Virus record (IMG/VR): IMGVR_UViG_3300046474_000470
Coordinates: 1 to 64,000 of that record
Source of the DNA: a virus
Reading direction: 5' to 3' (one strand)
DNA: 64,000 bases
In this document: one piece after another, positions 20,524-40,577 of the stretch
Position numbering within the stretch: position 1 is the stretch's first letter
Layout: each line of letters starts with the position of its first letter
The notes under the pieces: generated by a model
The model's input: only the letters and a program-made list of their open reading frames with translations
Told to the model about the DNA's origin: nothing
Databases searched by the model: none
Program-made: the position numbers and the translations under genes

Positions 20524-20717
20524 GGTCGCTTCTCCAGTGCCTGCCGGCCAGCCGGGGTCAGCTGGCCGTCGATCAGAAGTCCGTGGCGATGCAGTGCAGC
20601 CAGCGTTCCCGAGGCCCCACCATGCGCAGACCGCCCTGTCAGGCCATAGGTTGCCTGCCTCCCTTCTGCGATATTGCGCAGCATGCCCAGCATAGCTGGT
20701 GAAATACGGGCGCTCAT
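20520..20717 (-). CDS. Small winged-helix-like protein
   Basis: 65 residues from the ATG at 20717. The order MLGMLRNIAEG, TLAALHRHGLLIDG, LTPAGRQAL matches the end of a winged-helix domain seen in many small phage regulators. Overlaps thyA and the next gene by 4 bases each. A longer upstream frame is compositionally spurious. Confidence 0.6.
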   Translation of the reverse strand: MSARISPAMLGMLRNIAEGRQATYGLTGRSAHGGASGTLAALHRHGLLIDGQLTPAGRQALEKRP

Positions 20718-21628
20718 ACAGCCATCGGCGCTTTGATCGCCGCGTGGTGCTGGTAGTCGACCAGACGAATGTCGTCCGGGTGCAGGTGGTCGAGAATCTG
20801 ATCCAGCCGCGCCTCGGCCACGTTGACCAGGTGGTCGATCTCCAGCCGCGGCGCCGGCAGCGGCTCGCGCGCCAGCTGCTCCTTCACCTGGTCGATGTGG
20901 TTCTCGTAGATGTGGGCATCGGCCAGGAACATCGTCAGCGTGCCGGCGGTGTAGCCGGTCCACGCCGCGAACAGCTCCAGCAGCAGGGCGTAGCTGGCGA
21001 TATTGAAGGGCACGCCGAGGAACATGTCGCAGCTGCGCTGGTACATCGTCATATGCAGGACGCGGCCGTCGACGTGCGGCAGCAGCTGGAACAGCACGTG
21101 GCAGGGCGGCAGCGCGGCTTGATCCAGCTCGGCAGCGTTCCAGGCGTTGACGATGATGCGTCGGCTGGTCGAGTTGTAGCGGACGTCGTTCAACGCACGA
21201 GCAATCTGGTCGATGCTGGTCGGCGACCAGGTCACTTCACCGGCAGGGCCCTTCAGGTGCGACTCGACCAGCGGACCGCCCCAGTCGCGCCATTGCGCGC
21301 CGTAGATCCGGCCAAGGTCATCCTCGCCCTCGCGCGCCGGATTCTTCAGCCACTTCTCATTCTCGTTGGCGTTCTGGTCCCAGATGTTGCAGCCCAGCGC
21401 GCGGAAGTCGGCCGCGCTGGTCACGCCGCGCAAGAAGCCGATCAGCTCGCCCTTGACCGCGGCGAAGAACAGCTTCTTCGTGGTGATGGCCGGGAAGCCT
21501 TCGCGCAGATCGAACTTGAGCATGGCGCCGGGCAGCGTCAGGGTATCGATGCCCGTGCGGTTGGACTGGCGGATGCCGTCGCGAAGGATGGCCTGCAAGA
21601 GGCCGAGGTACTGATATTCTTGGGTCAT
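20714..21628 (-). CDS. thyA: Thymidylate synthase
   Basis: 304 residues with the full ThyA pattern. The N-terminal RTGIDTLTLPG folate region and YGAQWRDWGG are present, the catalytic Cys is in LPPCHVLFQ (about residue 176), followed by QRSCDMFLGVPFNIASYA. It makes dTMP from dUMP for phage DNA synthesis. Slightly longer than the roughly 264-residue bacterial enzyme because of internal inserts. The HIYENHIDQV segment is intact. Confidence 0.97.
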   Translation of the reverse strand: MTQEYQYLGLLQAILRDGIRQSNRTGIDTLTLPGAMLKFDLREGFPAITTKKLFFAAVKGELIGFLRGVTSAADFRALGCNIWDQNANENEKWLKNPAREGEDDLGRIYGAQWRDWGGPLVESHLKGPAGEVTWSPTSIDQIARALNDVRYNSTSRRIIVNAWNAAELDQAALPPCHVLFQLLPHVDGRVLHMTMYQRSCDMFLGVPFNIASYALLLELFAAWTGYTAGTLTMFLADAHIYENHIDQVKEQLAREPLPAPRLEIDHLVNVAEARLDQILDHLHPDDIRLVDYQHHAAIKAPMAV

Positions 21629-37925: not shown

Positions 37926-38323
37926 TTCTTCTCCGGTGGTTTGCTGTCGTTGACGAATCGGGTCGGCGGCGGTGGGGGCGGCGCCGGCATCTGCCGCGGC
38001 GGCGGTGCGCCGATGGTCAGCGCTTTGATCCCAGCCCGCCCGAACAGGACTTCCTGGCAGTTGCGGCAAGCGTGGGTGTGGTTTTCAACATAGGCATGCG
38101 CGCCGCGCGCGGCGTCGCCGGCCAGCATCGCCGCGACTTCCTCGGCGTGGCCGACCTGCCTGCAGACGATCTTGCACTTTTCATAGCCTTCGCCCGGTGC
38201 GCGCGGGCAGACAGGCTGCGGGCTGGCGCACCAGTTCTCGCCGACGAAGCGACTACCCTCTGGCGTGATGATGGTGCAGCGCACCTGCAGCTTGGCGCAG
38301 GGGCCCAGGGTTCCGGCGCTCAT
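37922..38323 (-). CDS. Cytidine/deoxycytidylate deaminase-like protein
   Basis: 133 residues. VGHAEEVA gives the HAE zinc/proton-shuttle motif, and HACRNCQEVLFGRAGIKALT the C-x2-C half with the usual strand-helix continuation. The N-terminal TIITPEGSRFVGENWC fits the substrate-binding strand, and a Pro-rich tail ends the protein. The usual PCxxC Pro is absent (ACRNC). It lies directly downstream of the cytosine methyltransferase. Substrate unknown. Confidence 0.68.
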   Translation of the reverse strand: MSAGTLGPCAKLQVRCTIITPEGSRFVGENWCASPQPVCPRAPGEGYEKCKIVCRQVGHAEEVAAMLAGDAARGAHAYVENHTHACRNCQEVLFGRAGIKALTIGAPPPRQMPAPPPPPPTRFVNDSKPPEKK

Positions 38324-39237
38324 TCAGATGCTCCCGTAGAAAGCTTCGATGAACGCTTTCGCGGCGTAGACGTTGACTGCATTGCCGTAGCCCCGCAGGA
38401 GTCCCACGCGGCCGGGTACCCCATCAGCCAGCGGCTGTGTGCCGGGTTCAACAGGCCGCCACTTGCTGTCCCGGCATGCGAGCCAGTCAGCAGCTGCCCA
38501 GTAGCCGTTAACCGGGCCGGGCCCTGCACGCTGATCCCATCCGGCGGGAATGCCGTCAGCACCGCGCCATGATTCAGCGTGAGGTTCTTGGTCGCGAAGT
38601 CCGGCGCCGGTGCCCGGTTGCCGTCGCAGGCTGTCGGCGTGCCCCAGCCCGTCAGCTGCGCCGCCATGCCCACCGTCACCTGGTTGGAGCAGCGGGTGCC
38701 CGCCTTGGCCTCGTTGGCGATCGGCGTGGGCCAGCCGCACAAATTCGCTTGCCGTGGCAGCTGATCCAGCCGCTCCTTGCCATTGTCCGACCGCGGCCTG
38801 ATGTCGGCGCCCGAGTCCTTCCAGTCCCGCGAGGTTGGCGTCACCCAGCCGGCCTGCCCAATAGCAGCGGTCGCGGATGTGCGGGGCACCGATGCCCGCA
38901 GACGGGAACGCGACCGCCCCGACGGCGTAGCCCAAGGCTTCCAGGTCAGCTTGTACAAGGTCGATCCAAGGGTCGACGAGACTGCTTGCAACCTGCTCTC
39001 CAAGGATTTCTGCAGGACGTCCGACGCGGGCAAGGTGGTGGAGAGCGGGCCATAGGTGCCGCTCGTCATCAAACCCTGCACCTTCGCCTGCCGAGGAGAA
39101 AGGTTGGCAAGGAGCGCTGCCCGTCCACACTCGACGGCTGTCAGGGATGCCTGCAAGTCGGAGAGCGTAGGACCAGCCGCCGATGCCGGCGAAGAAATGG
39201 CACTGGGTGAATCCGGCAAGATCTCCGGGTGTGACAT
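38320..39237 (-). CDS. Overlapping reading frame inside the methyltransferase gene (dual-coding candidate)
   Basis: 305 codons entirely within the methyltransferase gene in another frame of the same strand. The ATG at 39237 has AAAGGAG 8 bases upstream, and its TGA overlaps the start of the deaminase-like gene (ATGA). Composition is balanced, unlike the Arg/Ala/Pro-rich spurious frames of this GC-rich genome. Visible features: N-terminal SHPEILPDSPSAISSPAS, a LESRLQ ... LYKLTWKPWATPSGR segment, three GWxTPTxxDxK-type repeats (GWVTPTSRD, GWPTPIANE, GWGTPTACD) and LLNPAHSRWLMGYPAAW. Proteins with this look are, from memory, common beside phage cytosine methyltransferases. Function unknown. Confidence 0.65.
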   Translation of the reverse strand: MSHPEILPDSPSAISSPASAAGPTLSDLQASLTAVECGRAALLANLSPRQAKVQGLMTSGTYGPLSTTLPASDVLQKSLESRLQAVSSTLGSTLYKLTWKPWATPSGRSRSRLRASVPRTSATAAIGQAGWVTPTSRDWKDSGADIRPRSDNGKERLDQLPRQANLCGWPTPIANEAKAGTRCSNQVTVGMAAQLTGWGTPTACDGNRAPAPDFATKNLTLNHGAVLTAFPPDGISVQGPARLTATGQLLTGSHAGTASGGLLNPAHSRWLMGYPAAWDSCGATAMQSTSTPRKRSSKLSTGASE

Positions 39238-39346
39238 CGGCAATACTCCTTTCGTCGACCACGCCCGGCGCGATCAGGTTTTCTTTAATCAGCTCGCGCA
39301 GCCAGGCAGCCGCGCCCTTGTCGAACTCGTTGTAGTACGCGGTCAT
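38324..39346 (-). CDS. C5 cytosine DNA methyltransferase
   Basis: 340 residues from the ATG at 39346. Motif I is CHFFAGIGGW (49-58) and motif IV GSAPCQPFSSAG with the catalytic C80; GEQVASS replaces the usual ENV box, as in other phage enzymes. IGAPHIRDRCYW is motif VIII-like, and the C terminus RGYGNAVNVYAAKAFI is motif X-like. It transfers methyl from S-adenosylmethionine to cytosine C5, probably to escape restriction. Residues about 165-270 are Gly/Ala/Arg-rich and weakly structured, just where the overlapping frame looks most conserved. Confidence 0.88.
   Translation of the reverse strand: MTAYYNEFDKGAAAWLRELIKENLIAPGVVDERSIADVTPGDLAGFTQCHFFAGIGGWSYALRLAGIPDSRRVWTGSAPCQPFSSAGEGAGFDDERHLWPALHHLARVGRPAEILGEQVASSLVDPWIDLVQADLEALGYAVGAVAFPSAGIGAPHIRDRCYWAGRLGDANLAGLEGLGRRHQAAVGQWQGAAGSAATASEFVRLAHADRQRGQGGHPLLQPGDGGHGGAADGLGHADSLRRQPGTGAGLRDQEPHAESWRGADGIPAGWDQRAGPGPVNGYWAAADWLACRDSKWRPVEPGTQPLADGVPGRVGLLRGYGNAVNVYAAKAFIEAFYGSI
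39246..39252 (-). promoter_or_regulatory. Shine-Dalgarno of the overlapping frame
   Basis: AAAGGAG on the minus strand, 8 bases before the ATG at 39237. In the methyltransferase frame it encodes Glu-Arg-Ser using AGG and AGT, codons that look rare in this GC-rich genome, which suggests they are kept for the second start. Confidence 0.65.
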
Positions 39347-39651
39347 TTGAGCAGCGCCTTGAAGCGGGCATCGTGGTCCGCGCGCACCGCGCGCAGCTGG
39401 TCGAACTGCGACTGGCTGATGGCGTAGAGCACGTCGGCTTCCGCCTTCGTGTCGCAAAGCGCCACGACGGTGTGGAGGGCGCAGTAACCGCCCTCGTCCT
39501 CGCCGCGCCTGTTCTTGAAGTAGACGCGCTTTCCCGACCGGCGGATCACTTCGCGCGGCGCGTCCGTGATGTGATCCCGCAGCATCGGGGTCTGCAGGAT
39601 CCACTGCCCGGGCGTGATCTCGGTCAGCGGGCCGATTTCGCGCACGCCCAT
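39343..39651 (-). CDS. Hypothetical protein
   Basis: 102 residues from the ATG at 39651. Contains GGYCALHTVVALCDTKAEAD, then a helical end (LRAVRADHDARFKALL). Its start overlaps the rdgC stop and its stop overlaps the methyltransferase start. Function unknown. Confidence 0.6.
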   Translation of the reverse strand: MGVREIGPLTEITPGQWILQTPMLRDHITDAPREVIRRSGKRVYFKNRRGEDEGGYCALHTVVALCDTKAEADVLYAISQSQFDQLRAVRADHDARFKALLK

Positions 39652-40514
39652 CACGCCTCCTGCACCAGGCGATCGAGCAGGATGCCCAGCTCGCGCGTCA
39701 TCAGCGCGATGTCGGCGTCGAAGCGGTCGACGTCCTTCTCGGCGTCGCGGCCTTCCTGCATGACGTCGAGCGGCTTGATCTTGCGCAGCTGGCTGTTCTG
39801 GGTCATGACGAACGAAAGGCGGCTGGCGAAAGTCATGGCCACGGCCTCGACCACGGCGCCGGCTCCCAGCTGGCCGCTCACGTCGTCGCCCGAGAGCTGG
39901 GCACGCTCGTACTTCACCAGCTTGCCGCGCTCGCCCGGGTGGCGCAGCACCGCGGCGTCGTCGACGCTGAATTCGAACGGCGCCTCGTCCTTGACCCACT
40001 CGGTCACCACCTTGGCGCGCGGCCAGCTGACGTCGCACAGGCCCAAGTCGTTGCGGCTGTCCTGCACGTACTTCAGCAGCACTTTGATGATGTCGTCGCA
40101 GGCGCTGTTCGAGGTCGAGTCGATCACGAGGCGGTGCTGATCCTGGTCGATCCAGATCAGGGTCGTGCGGCTGGTAGTCAGGGCGCGCGGCAGCAGCTCG
40201 TCGAAGGCGCGCTCCTTGAGTTCCTTCTTGGCCTTCTTGCCGGGCGGGAAGCCCTGCTGTTCTTCCAGTTCTTTGCAACGGGCTTCGACCACGGCCGCCA
40301 CGGCCGACGCCGGGATCACCTTCTTCTCGACCTTGAAGCGCAGCAGGATGTGCTTGCCCTGGCGGTAAGCGATCTCGTCGTCGCGCACCGGCACGAAGCC
40401 GGACGACATCAACTCGTGGGTACCGACAGGAACGAAACGAGCAGCTTCAAGCTGCTCGATGGGGAATTGTGCCTTCGGGCTGATGCCGTAGACGGTTGCA
40501 TTTTTGATCCACAT
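39651..40514 (-). CDS. rdgC: RdgC-like recombination-associated protein
   Basis: 287 residues from the ATG at 40514, close to the 303 of the E. coli protein. The opening MWIKNATVYGIS, FVPVGTHELMSSGFVP, then GKHILLRFKVEKKVIPASAV match RdgC. The family forms ring-shaped dimers around dsDNA and, in bacteria, limits RecA loading. In a phage it may protect or channel recombination intermediates. First gene after a strong promoter; the earlier TTG at 40577 is actually part of the -35 box. Confidence 0.9.
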   Translation of the reverse strand: MWIKNATVYGISPKAQFPIEQLEAARFVPVGTHELMSSGFVPVRDDEIAYRQGKHILLRFKVEKKVIPASAVAAVVEARCKELEEQQGFPPGKKAKKELKERAFDELLPRALTTSRTTLIWIDQDQHRLVIDSTSNSACDDIIKVLLKYVQDSRNDLGLCDVSWPRAKVVTEWVKDEAPFEFSVDDAAVLRHPGERGKLVKYERAQLSGDDVSGQLGAGAVVEAVAMTFASRLSFVMTQNSQLRKIKPLDVMQEGRDAEKDVDRFDADIALMTRELGILLDRLVQEA

Positions 40515-40548
40515 AGGGTTGGACTTTTCTGGTGGGAAAGGGATTATT

Positions 40549-40577
40549 AGGGTAAGCAAACTCTTCTGCTGTGTCAA
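40549..40577 (-). promoter_or_regulatory. Strong sigma70 promoter for rdgC
   Basis: Minus strand TTGACA (40572-40577), a 17-base spacer ending GTTTGCT, then TACCCT (40549-40554). A second TTGACC lies 19 bases upstream. It resembles the promoter at 32333-32361. Confidence 0.7.

Follow-up and report, generated by a model that had tools for sequence, protein, structure and literature searches.

In the C5-cytosine DNA methyltransferase M.EcoHK31I, the gene of the large subunit also encodes the small subunit, in a different reading frame. In this two-polypeptide enzyme (YGGCCR), only motif IX is located in the small polypeptide (Lee, Kam and Shaw 1995, cited in PMC3404938), and PMC3404938 assigns motifs I-VIII and X, together with a predicted recognition domain, to the large subunit. 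Another split C5 methyltransferase is M.AquI (CYCGRG), in which motifs IX and X belong to the small subunit along with one half of the variable region (PMC3404938).

In this study, we analysed a window of 64,000 nucleotides belonging to a virus record of 84,887 bases (IMGVR_UViG_3300046474_000470), in which a C5-cytosine methyltransferase gene contains a second long open frame on the same strand, shifted by +1; the two are referred to below as the main and the hidden frame. Motifs I-VIII and X were assigned to the main frame and motif IX to the hidden one, a motif layout that matches the one described for M.EcoHK31I (PMC3404938), so the kind of arrangement is already known. The present locus is unlike M.EcoHK31I in two respects: PMC3404938 places the predicted recognition domain in the large subunit, whereas here the constrained recognition region was assigned to the +1 frame, and the genes studied here are found in phages and prophages, with no restriction gene among the neighbour families listed. 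M.AquI is similar in that the catalytic part and the recognition and motif IX part reside on two polypeptides (PMC3404938), but here motif X stays in the main frame and the genes overlap by more than 900 nt; seven relatives with motifs IX and X both in the +1 frame look closer to it. A few database records note both frames, such as those of the K1 phage K1ind2 (ORF29/ORF28, 'Mte8-like') and Paenibacillus phage Shelly (gp55/gp56, 'g55 internal gene'), which have the same +1 geometry and give the internal gene no function. No report of this phage overlap was found in the literature searched, which was mostly without subscription journals and is thus weak evidence of absence; apparently new are the deep phage-wide conservation, the selection map, the placing of the recognition region in the hidden subunit and the single-frame and intermediate relatives.

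Geometry and homology of the two frames

The positions of the two frames, from an ORF reading of the window, and of their parts are listed in Table 1. The hidden frame begins with an ATG at 39237-39235 and ends with a TGA at 38322-38320 on the minus strand. This TGA overlaps the ATG of the next gene (38323-38321) as ATGA (38323-38320), and the methyltransferase stop codon (38326-38324) adjoins the same ATG. The elements described in the initial annotation were all located: the nested same-strand frame, its AAAGGAG 8 bases before the ATG, its overlapping TGA, its three GWxTPT-type repeats and LLNPAHSRWLMGYPAAW, the last of which ends at 38404, and, in the methyltransferase frame, PCQ with C80 and GYGNAV. 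Neighbours of the gene in the window include a SNF2/DEAD-type helicase and, just upstream at 39651-40577 (minus strand), an RdgC-family protein (PF04381, 2.5e-71). A thymidylate synthase is also encoded by the phage (PF00303, 7.8e-91; window 20714-21628, minus strand).

Table 1. Coordinates of the overlapping frames and their parts in the window
Feature	Position	Strand	Evidence
Main frame, C5-cytosine methyltransferase, 340 aa; putative catalytic subunit with motifs I-VIII and X	38324..39346	-	PF00145, phrog_363, AF2, Foldseek
Hidden frame, +1-frame protein, 305 aa; putative subunit with recognition-region repeats and motif IX	38320..39237	-	phrog_1008, phrog_31772, tblastn, purifying selection
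Shine-Dalgarno AAAGGAG of the hidden frame, 8 nt 5' of its ATG	39246..39252	-	sequence
Hidden residues 44-128, doubly constrained, over catalytic motifs IV-VIII; suggested docking part	38854..39108	-	substitution ratios, pLDDT
GWVTPT repeat, hidden frame	38833..38850	-	sequence, [WL]xTP frame counts
GWPTPI repeat, hidden frame	38719..38736	-	sequence, [WL]xTP frame counts
GWGTPT repeat, hidden frame	38632..38649	-	sequence, [WL]xTP frame counts
Main residues 186-290, Gly/Ala/Arg-rich linker over the putative hidden recognition region; near-neutral, predicted disordered	38477..38791	-	substitution ratios, pLDDT
Putative motif IX, hidden frame: LNPAHSRWLMGYPAAW	38404..38451	-	same motif in main frame of WillSterrel and JKSyngboy
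Motif X GYGNAV, main frame, directly after hidden motif IX	38375..38392	-	Y320, G321, N322, A323 invariant (alignment A4)
Catalytic Cys80 (PCQ, motif IV), main frame	39107..39109	-	P79, C80, Q81 invariant (alignment A4)

The main frame matched PF00145 (4.1e-11) and phrog_363 (5.6e-78) and contains the C5-cytosine methyltransferase hallmarks of a PCQ nucleophile and a SAM-binding fold; motif IX was not found in this frame and lies in the +1 frame instead. In the AF2 model of the main protein, pLDDT was mostly above 80 over the catalytic core, with many blocks above 90, and Foldseek matched the model to the HaeIII/HhaI methyltransferases (E about 1e-7). The pLDDT of residues 181-290 was about 32-52. 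A constrained recognition domain is thus missing from the main frame, whose residues 166-285 are near-neutral and whose residues 186-290 are predicted to be disordered.

The hidden protein matched phrog_1008 (1.9e-31) over residues 10-291, most of its length, and phrog_31772 (3.8e-30); no match was obtained in Pfam or NCBIfam, and a profile search against PDB sequences found nothing. Its stand-alone model was poor (pLDDT 58, pTM 0.28), as would be the case for a subunit that needs its partner in order to fold. Within this model residues 71-120 reached pLDDT 79-87, a helix and a beta hairpin were predicted in residues 44-128, and short helices were predicted at motif IX. A fold search with the model gave no usable match, and with a poor model and no fold match the docking and recognition roles considered below rest on homology.

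The content of the hidden frame was compared with single-frame relatives. Over 447 loci, [WL]xTP was counted 750 times in the +1 frame, 100 times in frame 0 and 17 times in the +2 frame. In the one-chain methyltransferase of Mycobacterium phage WillSterrel (391 aa), the main frame has LLPTP repeats and LNPAFPEWMMGWPTGW after motif VIII and before motif X, and LSPVFVEWMMGLPRGW has the same placement in the main frame of Gordonia phage JKSyngboy. WillSterrel and its kin share with the window gene the catalytic core, the motif IX signature and motif X, and the one chain of WillSterrel is matched by both phrog_363 and phrog_1008, but everything is in one frame and there is no selection for an open +1 frame. 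The signature LNPxxxxWLMGYPxxW of the hidden protein is that of motif IX in the in-frame relatives; it was read as motif IX because it is placed between the variable region and motif X and because it resembles motif IX of M.HhaI. The independent library family phrog_1008 matched Shelly's internal +1 gene at 8.2e-74 and the WillSterrel enzyme, over residues 194-390, at 1.3e-57. By hhalign, the +1 region of the Shelly type aligned with the in-frame region (probability 97.9, E 6e-13) and the window type with the Shelly type (probability 99.1, E 5e-19); the direct alignment of the window-type +1 frame with the in-frame region was local and confined to the repeats (probability 93.8, 1.8e-7), and the link of the window type to motif IX runs via the Shelly type and the PHROG family. 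This homology identifies the Wx-TP repeats of the hidden frame as the C5 methyltransferase recognition region and its LNPxxxxWLMGYPxxW signature as motif IX. The role of methyltransferase partner or specificity factor, which the initial annotation had suggested for the second protein, is therefore the best supported one through homology to single-frame C5 methyltransferases; what had been missed is that the +1 frame encodes part of the methyltransferase, not an unrelated gene, and that M.EcoHK31I offers a published biochemical precedent.

Coding and selection in both frames

ORFs of more than 150 codons, many of them spurious, are abundant in this GC-rich phage window, and ORF length was thus not used as evidence. 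Stop codons were counted in 66 distinct genes and compared with synonymous permutation; because loci fetched with the hidden frame are open by construction, the sample was made up of loci fetched with the methyltransferase frame and a few annotated phage records. The +1 frame contained 2 stops against about 158 expected and was open across the fixed region in 64 of the 66 genes. In the two exceptions, the phage records L163 and L167, the hidden frame is open over its own extent and ends before the fixed boundary. The +2 frame had 818 stops (701 expected) and the codon-register antisense frame (a0) had 215 (215 expected). The single-frame relatives (class I, see below) served as a negative control, with 97 stops in the +1 frame against 116 expected and none of 19 genes open. 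The +1 stops numbered 18 against 126 expected in class II and 47 against 218 in Shelly-type class III, in regions that were set by the main frame and run past one of the two ends of the hidden ORF. A chance ORF is ruled out by the stop counts together with the substitution patterns. The GC content at the three main-frame codon positions was 0.78/0.58/0.64 in the overlap, compared with 0.58/0.39/0.81 in the 36 codons before it and 0.62/0.38/0.92 and 0.65/0.38/0.86 in the two flanking genes; a depressed third position is expected if it doubles as the second position of another codon.

Similarity in the alternative frames was also compared with synonymous permutation, but the other frames rose too and this measure was replaced by two-frame dN/dS counts. 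Sites and differences were scored as synonymous or nonsynonymous in each frame over 43 non-overlapping pairs with 70-98% identity; the values, obtained by plain pairwise counting with multiple hits left uncorrected, are therefore approximate, and it is the contrasts that matter. The second codon position of the hidden frame is the third of the main frame, and nearly all main-synonymous changes therefore alter the hidden protein. In main residues 1-34 and 40-79 the main frame was constrained and the hidden frame was not (dNN/dNS 0.84 and 0.94). Both frames were constrained in residues 80-165 (hidden dNN/dNS 0.47 and dSN/dSS 0.31; main 0.28 and 0.18) and again in residues 286-325 (hidden 0.51 and 0.25; main 0.38 and 0.18). 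Between these blocks, in residues 166-285, the hidden frame was constrained (0.58 and 0.50) and the main frame was near-neutral (dNN/dSN 1.02 [0.95-1.09], and 0.87). From main residue 80 on, dNN/dNS of the +1 frame was thus 0.47-0.58 and dSN/dSS 0.25-0.50 (43 independent pairs), against 0.98-1.66 and 0.52-1.02 across regions in the +2 control frame. Purifying selection acts on both frames in two blocks, and the dual-coding region is real; the suggestion of the initial annotation that the two genes trade constraint along the DNA agrees with this map, in which selection is not confined to one frame. Among the antisense frames, a1 and a2 showed no constraint and were rejected as coding; the ratios of a0 were mildly low because its wobble base is that of the +1 frame, but a0 is not kept open and was rejected as well.

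The hidden residues 1-43 showed no clear family-wide constraint, and the hidden start may therefore vary between clades. In the nearest kin of the window (L001 and L002), third-position divergence fell from 0.40-0.49 before the overlap to 0.07-0.12 at residues 37-165, compared with 0.25-0.41 in the flanking genes, so the hidden N-terminus seems to be constrained there too. The start signals of the hidden frame are conserved. At main Asp37, the codon GAT, which creates the hidden ATG, was preferred to GAC (105:18, compared with 128:211 in the background; p about 1e-20), and a Shine-Dalgarno-like core was present 8-10 nt upstream in 66 of the 86 genes with the hidden ATG and in 1 of the 42 without it, although p-values of this kind overstate the case because related sequences are not independent. 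Other genes have ATGs preceded by Shine-Dalgarno sequences at residue 31, 41 or 69 instead.

Distribution, architectures and history

A total of 249 loci were collected, comprising 80 from IMG/VR found with the hidden frame, 80 from IMG/VR found with the main frame, 80 bacterial loci and nine annotated records. Both frames, each searched independently, were present in all 249, always in the +1 relation, and overlapped by at least 400 nt in 245; the other four are truncated or interrupted copies. In none of the 249 loci did the hidden gene stand alone. Homologues of the hidden protein were detected in 217 phage records (tblastn, E<=1e-3), mostly under features named methyltransferase. The expectations that such homologues exist, that they always overlap a methyltransferase frame and that annotation usually keeps one frame only were thus borne out. 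In the bacterial genomes the neighbours were prophage genes and sometimes a second, adenine-type methyltransferase, so the genes look like orphan phage modification enzymes; no type II endonuclease was found among the top 25 neighbour families listed for the nearest neighbours of up to 80 bacterial loci.

Several individual records were also inspected. The overlapping gene of Pseudomonas phage Riah (1675-2671) is wholly unannotated, with both frames open and matching. In Dunaliella viridis virus SI2 (2346-2820), the catalytic core has been lost by an internal deletion, yet both frames are still open and can be recognised in their C-terminal parts. Both overlapping ORFs are split by frame breaks in Krischvirus LF73P4, where one break suffices, and in Pseudomonas phage PACT201, where there are several; these may represent decay or sequencing error, and the related Aragogtheria is intact. 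A different C5 methyltransferase, in Mycobacterium phage HokkenD (1231-2754), contains a 211-codon open +2 stretch that could be due to chance.

The architecture survey covered 447 loci with a detected core, about 60 of which lacked the motif IX/X pair by the patterns used. Repeats, motif IX and motif X are all in frame 0 in 24 loci (class I); the repeats are in the +1 frame and motifs IX and X in frame 0 in 37 loci (class II); and the repeats and motif IX are in the +1 frame with motif X in frame 0 in 263 loci (class III), to which about 35 with repeats not clearly assigned can be added. Gp58 of phage N15 belongs to class III. Seven of the 447 loci have both IX and X in the +1 frame. Motifs IX and X are typically 60 nt apart in class III, compared with 87 nt where both motifs are in frame 0. 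The class II loci L310, L311, L362 and L277, with repeats (LLPTPTAMHTRNHDEPIEAY...) in a +1 ORF that stops near main-frame motif IX, are intermediate between one-chain and window-type genes. In L280, L367, L386 and Gordonia phage GordTnk2, the core is in one ORF and the recognition region, IX and X belong either to the next frame or to a gene annotated on its own, which resembles the split of M.AquI.

On a quick tree of the catalytic core (173 columns), class III formed a single clade (SH-aLRT 98) that includes one member scored differently; this clade spans window-type and Paenibacillus-type genes, and classes I and II are intermixed outside it. The single clade favours one origin. We give even chances to a history in which the gene of a one-chain phage methyltransferase came to encode two overlapping proteins through one ancient frame transition, with a trans-acting specificity subunit, a newly overprinted N-terminal part and a free-running main linker, and has persisted in phages of Pseudomonadota, Cyanobacteria and Bacillota; as the recognition region and motif IX can each be placed in either frame, frame switching would then be a recurrent re-wiring of specificity.

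A putative two-subunit enzyme and alternative explanations

Taken as a whole, the locus is very probably a single overlapping gene for a C5-cytosine DNA methyltransferase of two subunits, a catalytic one and an out-of-frame specificity subunit. The main frame would make the catalytic subunit, which would carry the chemistry with its SAM-binding fold, Cys80, motifs I-VIII and motif X, and its unstructured linker, in place of the recognition domain of a one-chain enzyme, would need only to stay open and reach motif X. The +1 frame would be translated from its own Shine-Dalgarno site into a second protein with the Wx-TP repeats and motif IX. This protein may dock on the catalytic subunit, partly through its residues 44-128, and would supply target recognition in trans. 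The origin was most likely single, frame transitions in a one-chain ancestor having presumably displaced its recognition region and motif IX from the main frame.

Programmed ribosomal frameshifting, in which a +1 shift after motif VIII would join the catalytic and recognition parts without a separate +1 protein, would account for the finding that, beyond residue 165, the +1 part is homologous to what follows in frame in the single-frame relatives; we regard it as improbable, since the +1 constraint is present already upstream of such a shift in main residues 80-165, the hidden frame has a conserved Shine-Dalgarno sequence and ATG, and the return to motif X in frame 0 would need a second shift. 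It is just as doubtful that the +1 protein is real but has another job, such as anti-restriction or regulation, with an incidental or co-opted likeness to motif IX: the hidden residues 1-128 have no known in-frame counterpart and the fold search was negative, but the hidden frame never occurs without the catalytic frame (249/249 loci), phrog_1008 also extends over the half of one-chain enzymes that holds the recognition region and motif IX, and no constrained recognition domain is left in the main frame. That only one frame is coding and the other simply mirrors nucleotide conservation, GC bias or a DNA or RNA element is highly improbable, because, even with long chance ORFs common in this GC-rich phage and similarity in other frames also above the permutation null, the +1 frame is constrained whereas the +2 control is not, strong stop depletion is limited to the +1 frame and missing from single-frame relatives, and amino-acid matches link the +1 protein to in-frame proteins of other phages.

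Cytosine methyltransferases are frequent in phage annotations. For the proposed overlapping two-subunit gene, the arrangement is kept across phages of distantly related bacteria and is usually missed by annotation, which gives one of the two proteins of this large phage methyltransferase family and sometimes the other one. If the two-subunit reading is true, codon-optimised expression of the annotated ORF would destroy the specificity subunit. The family is also a good test case for dual-coding evolution, because constraint maps to one frame, the other or both and the single-frame relatives act as controls. The arrangement of M.EcoHK31I, represented by one enzyme in the literature searched, would thereby become a widespread phage design, in which the recognition region is suggested to lie in the small subunit.
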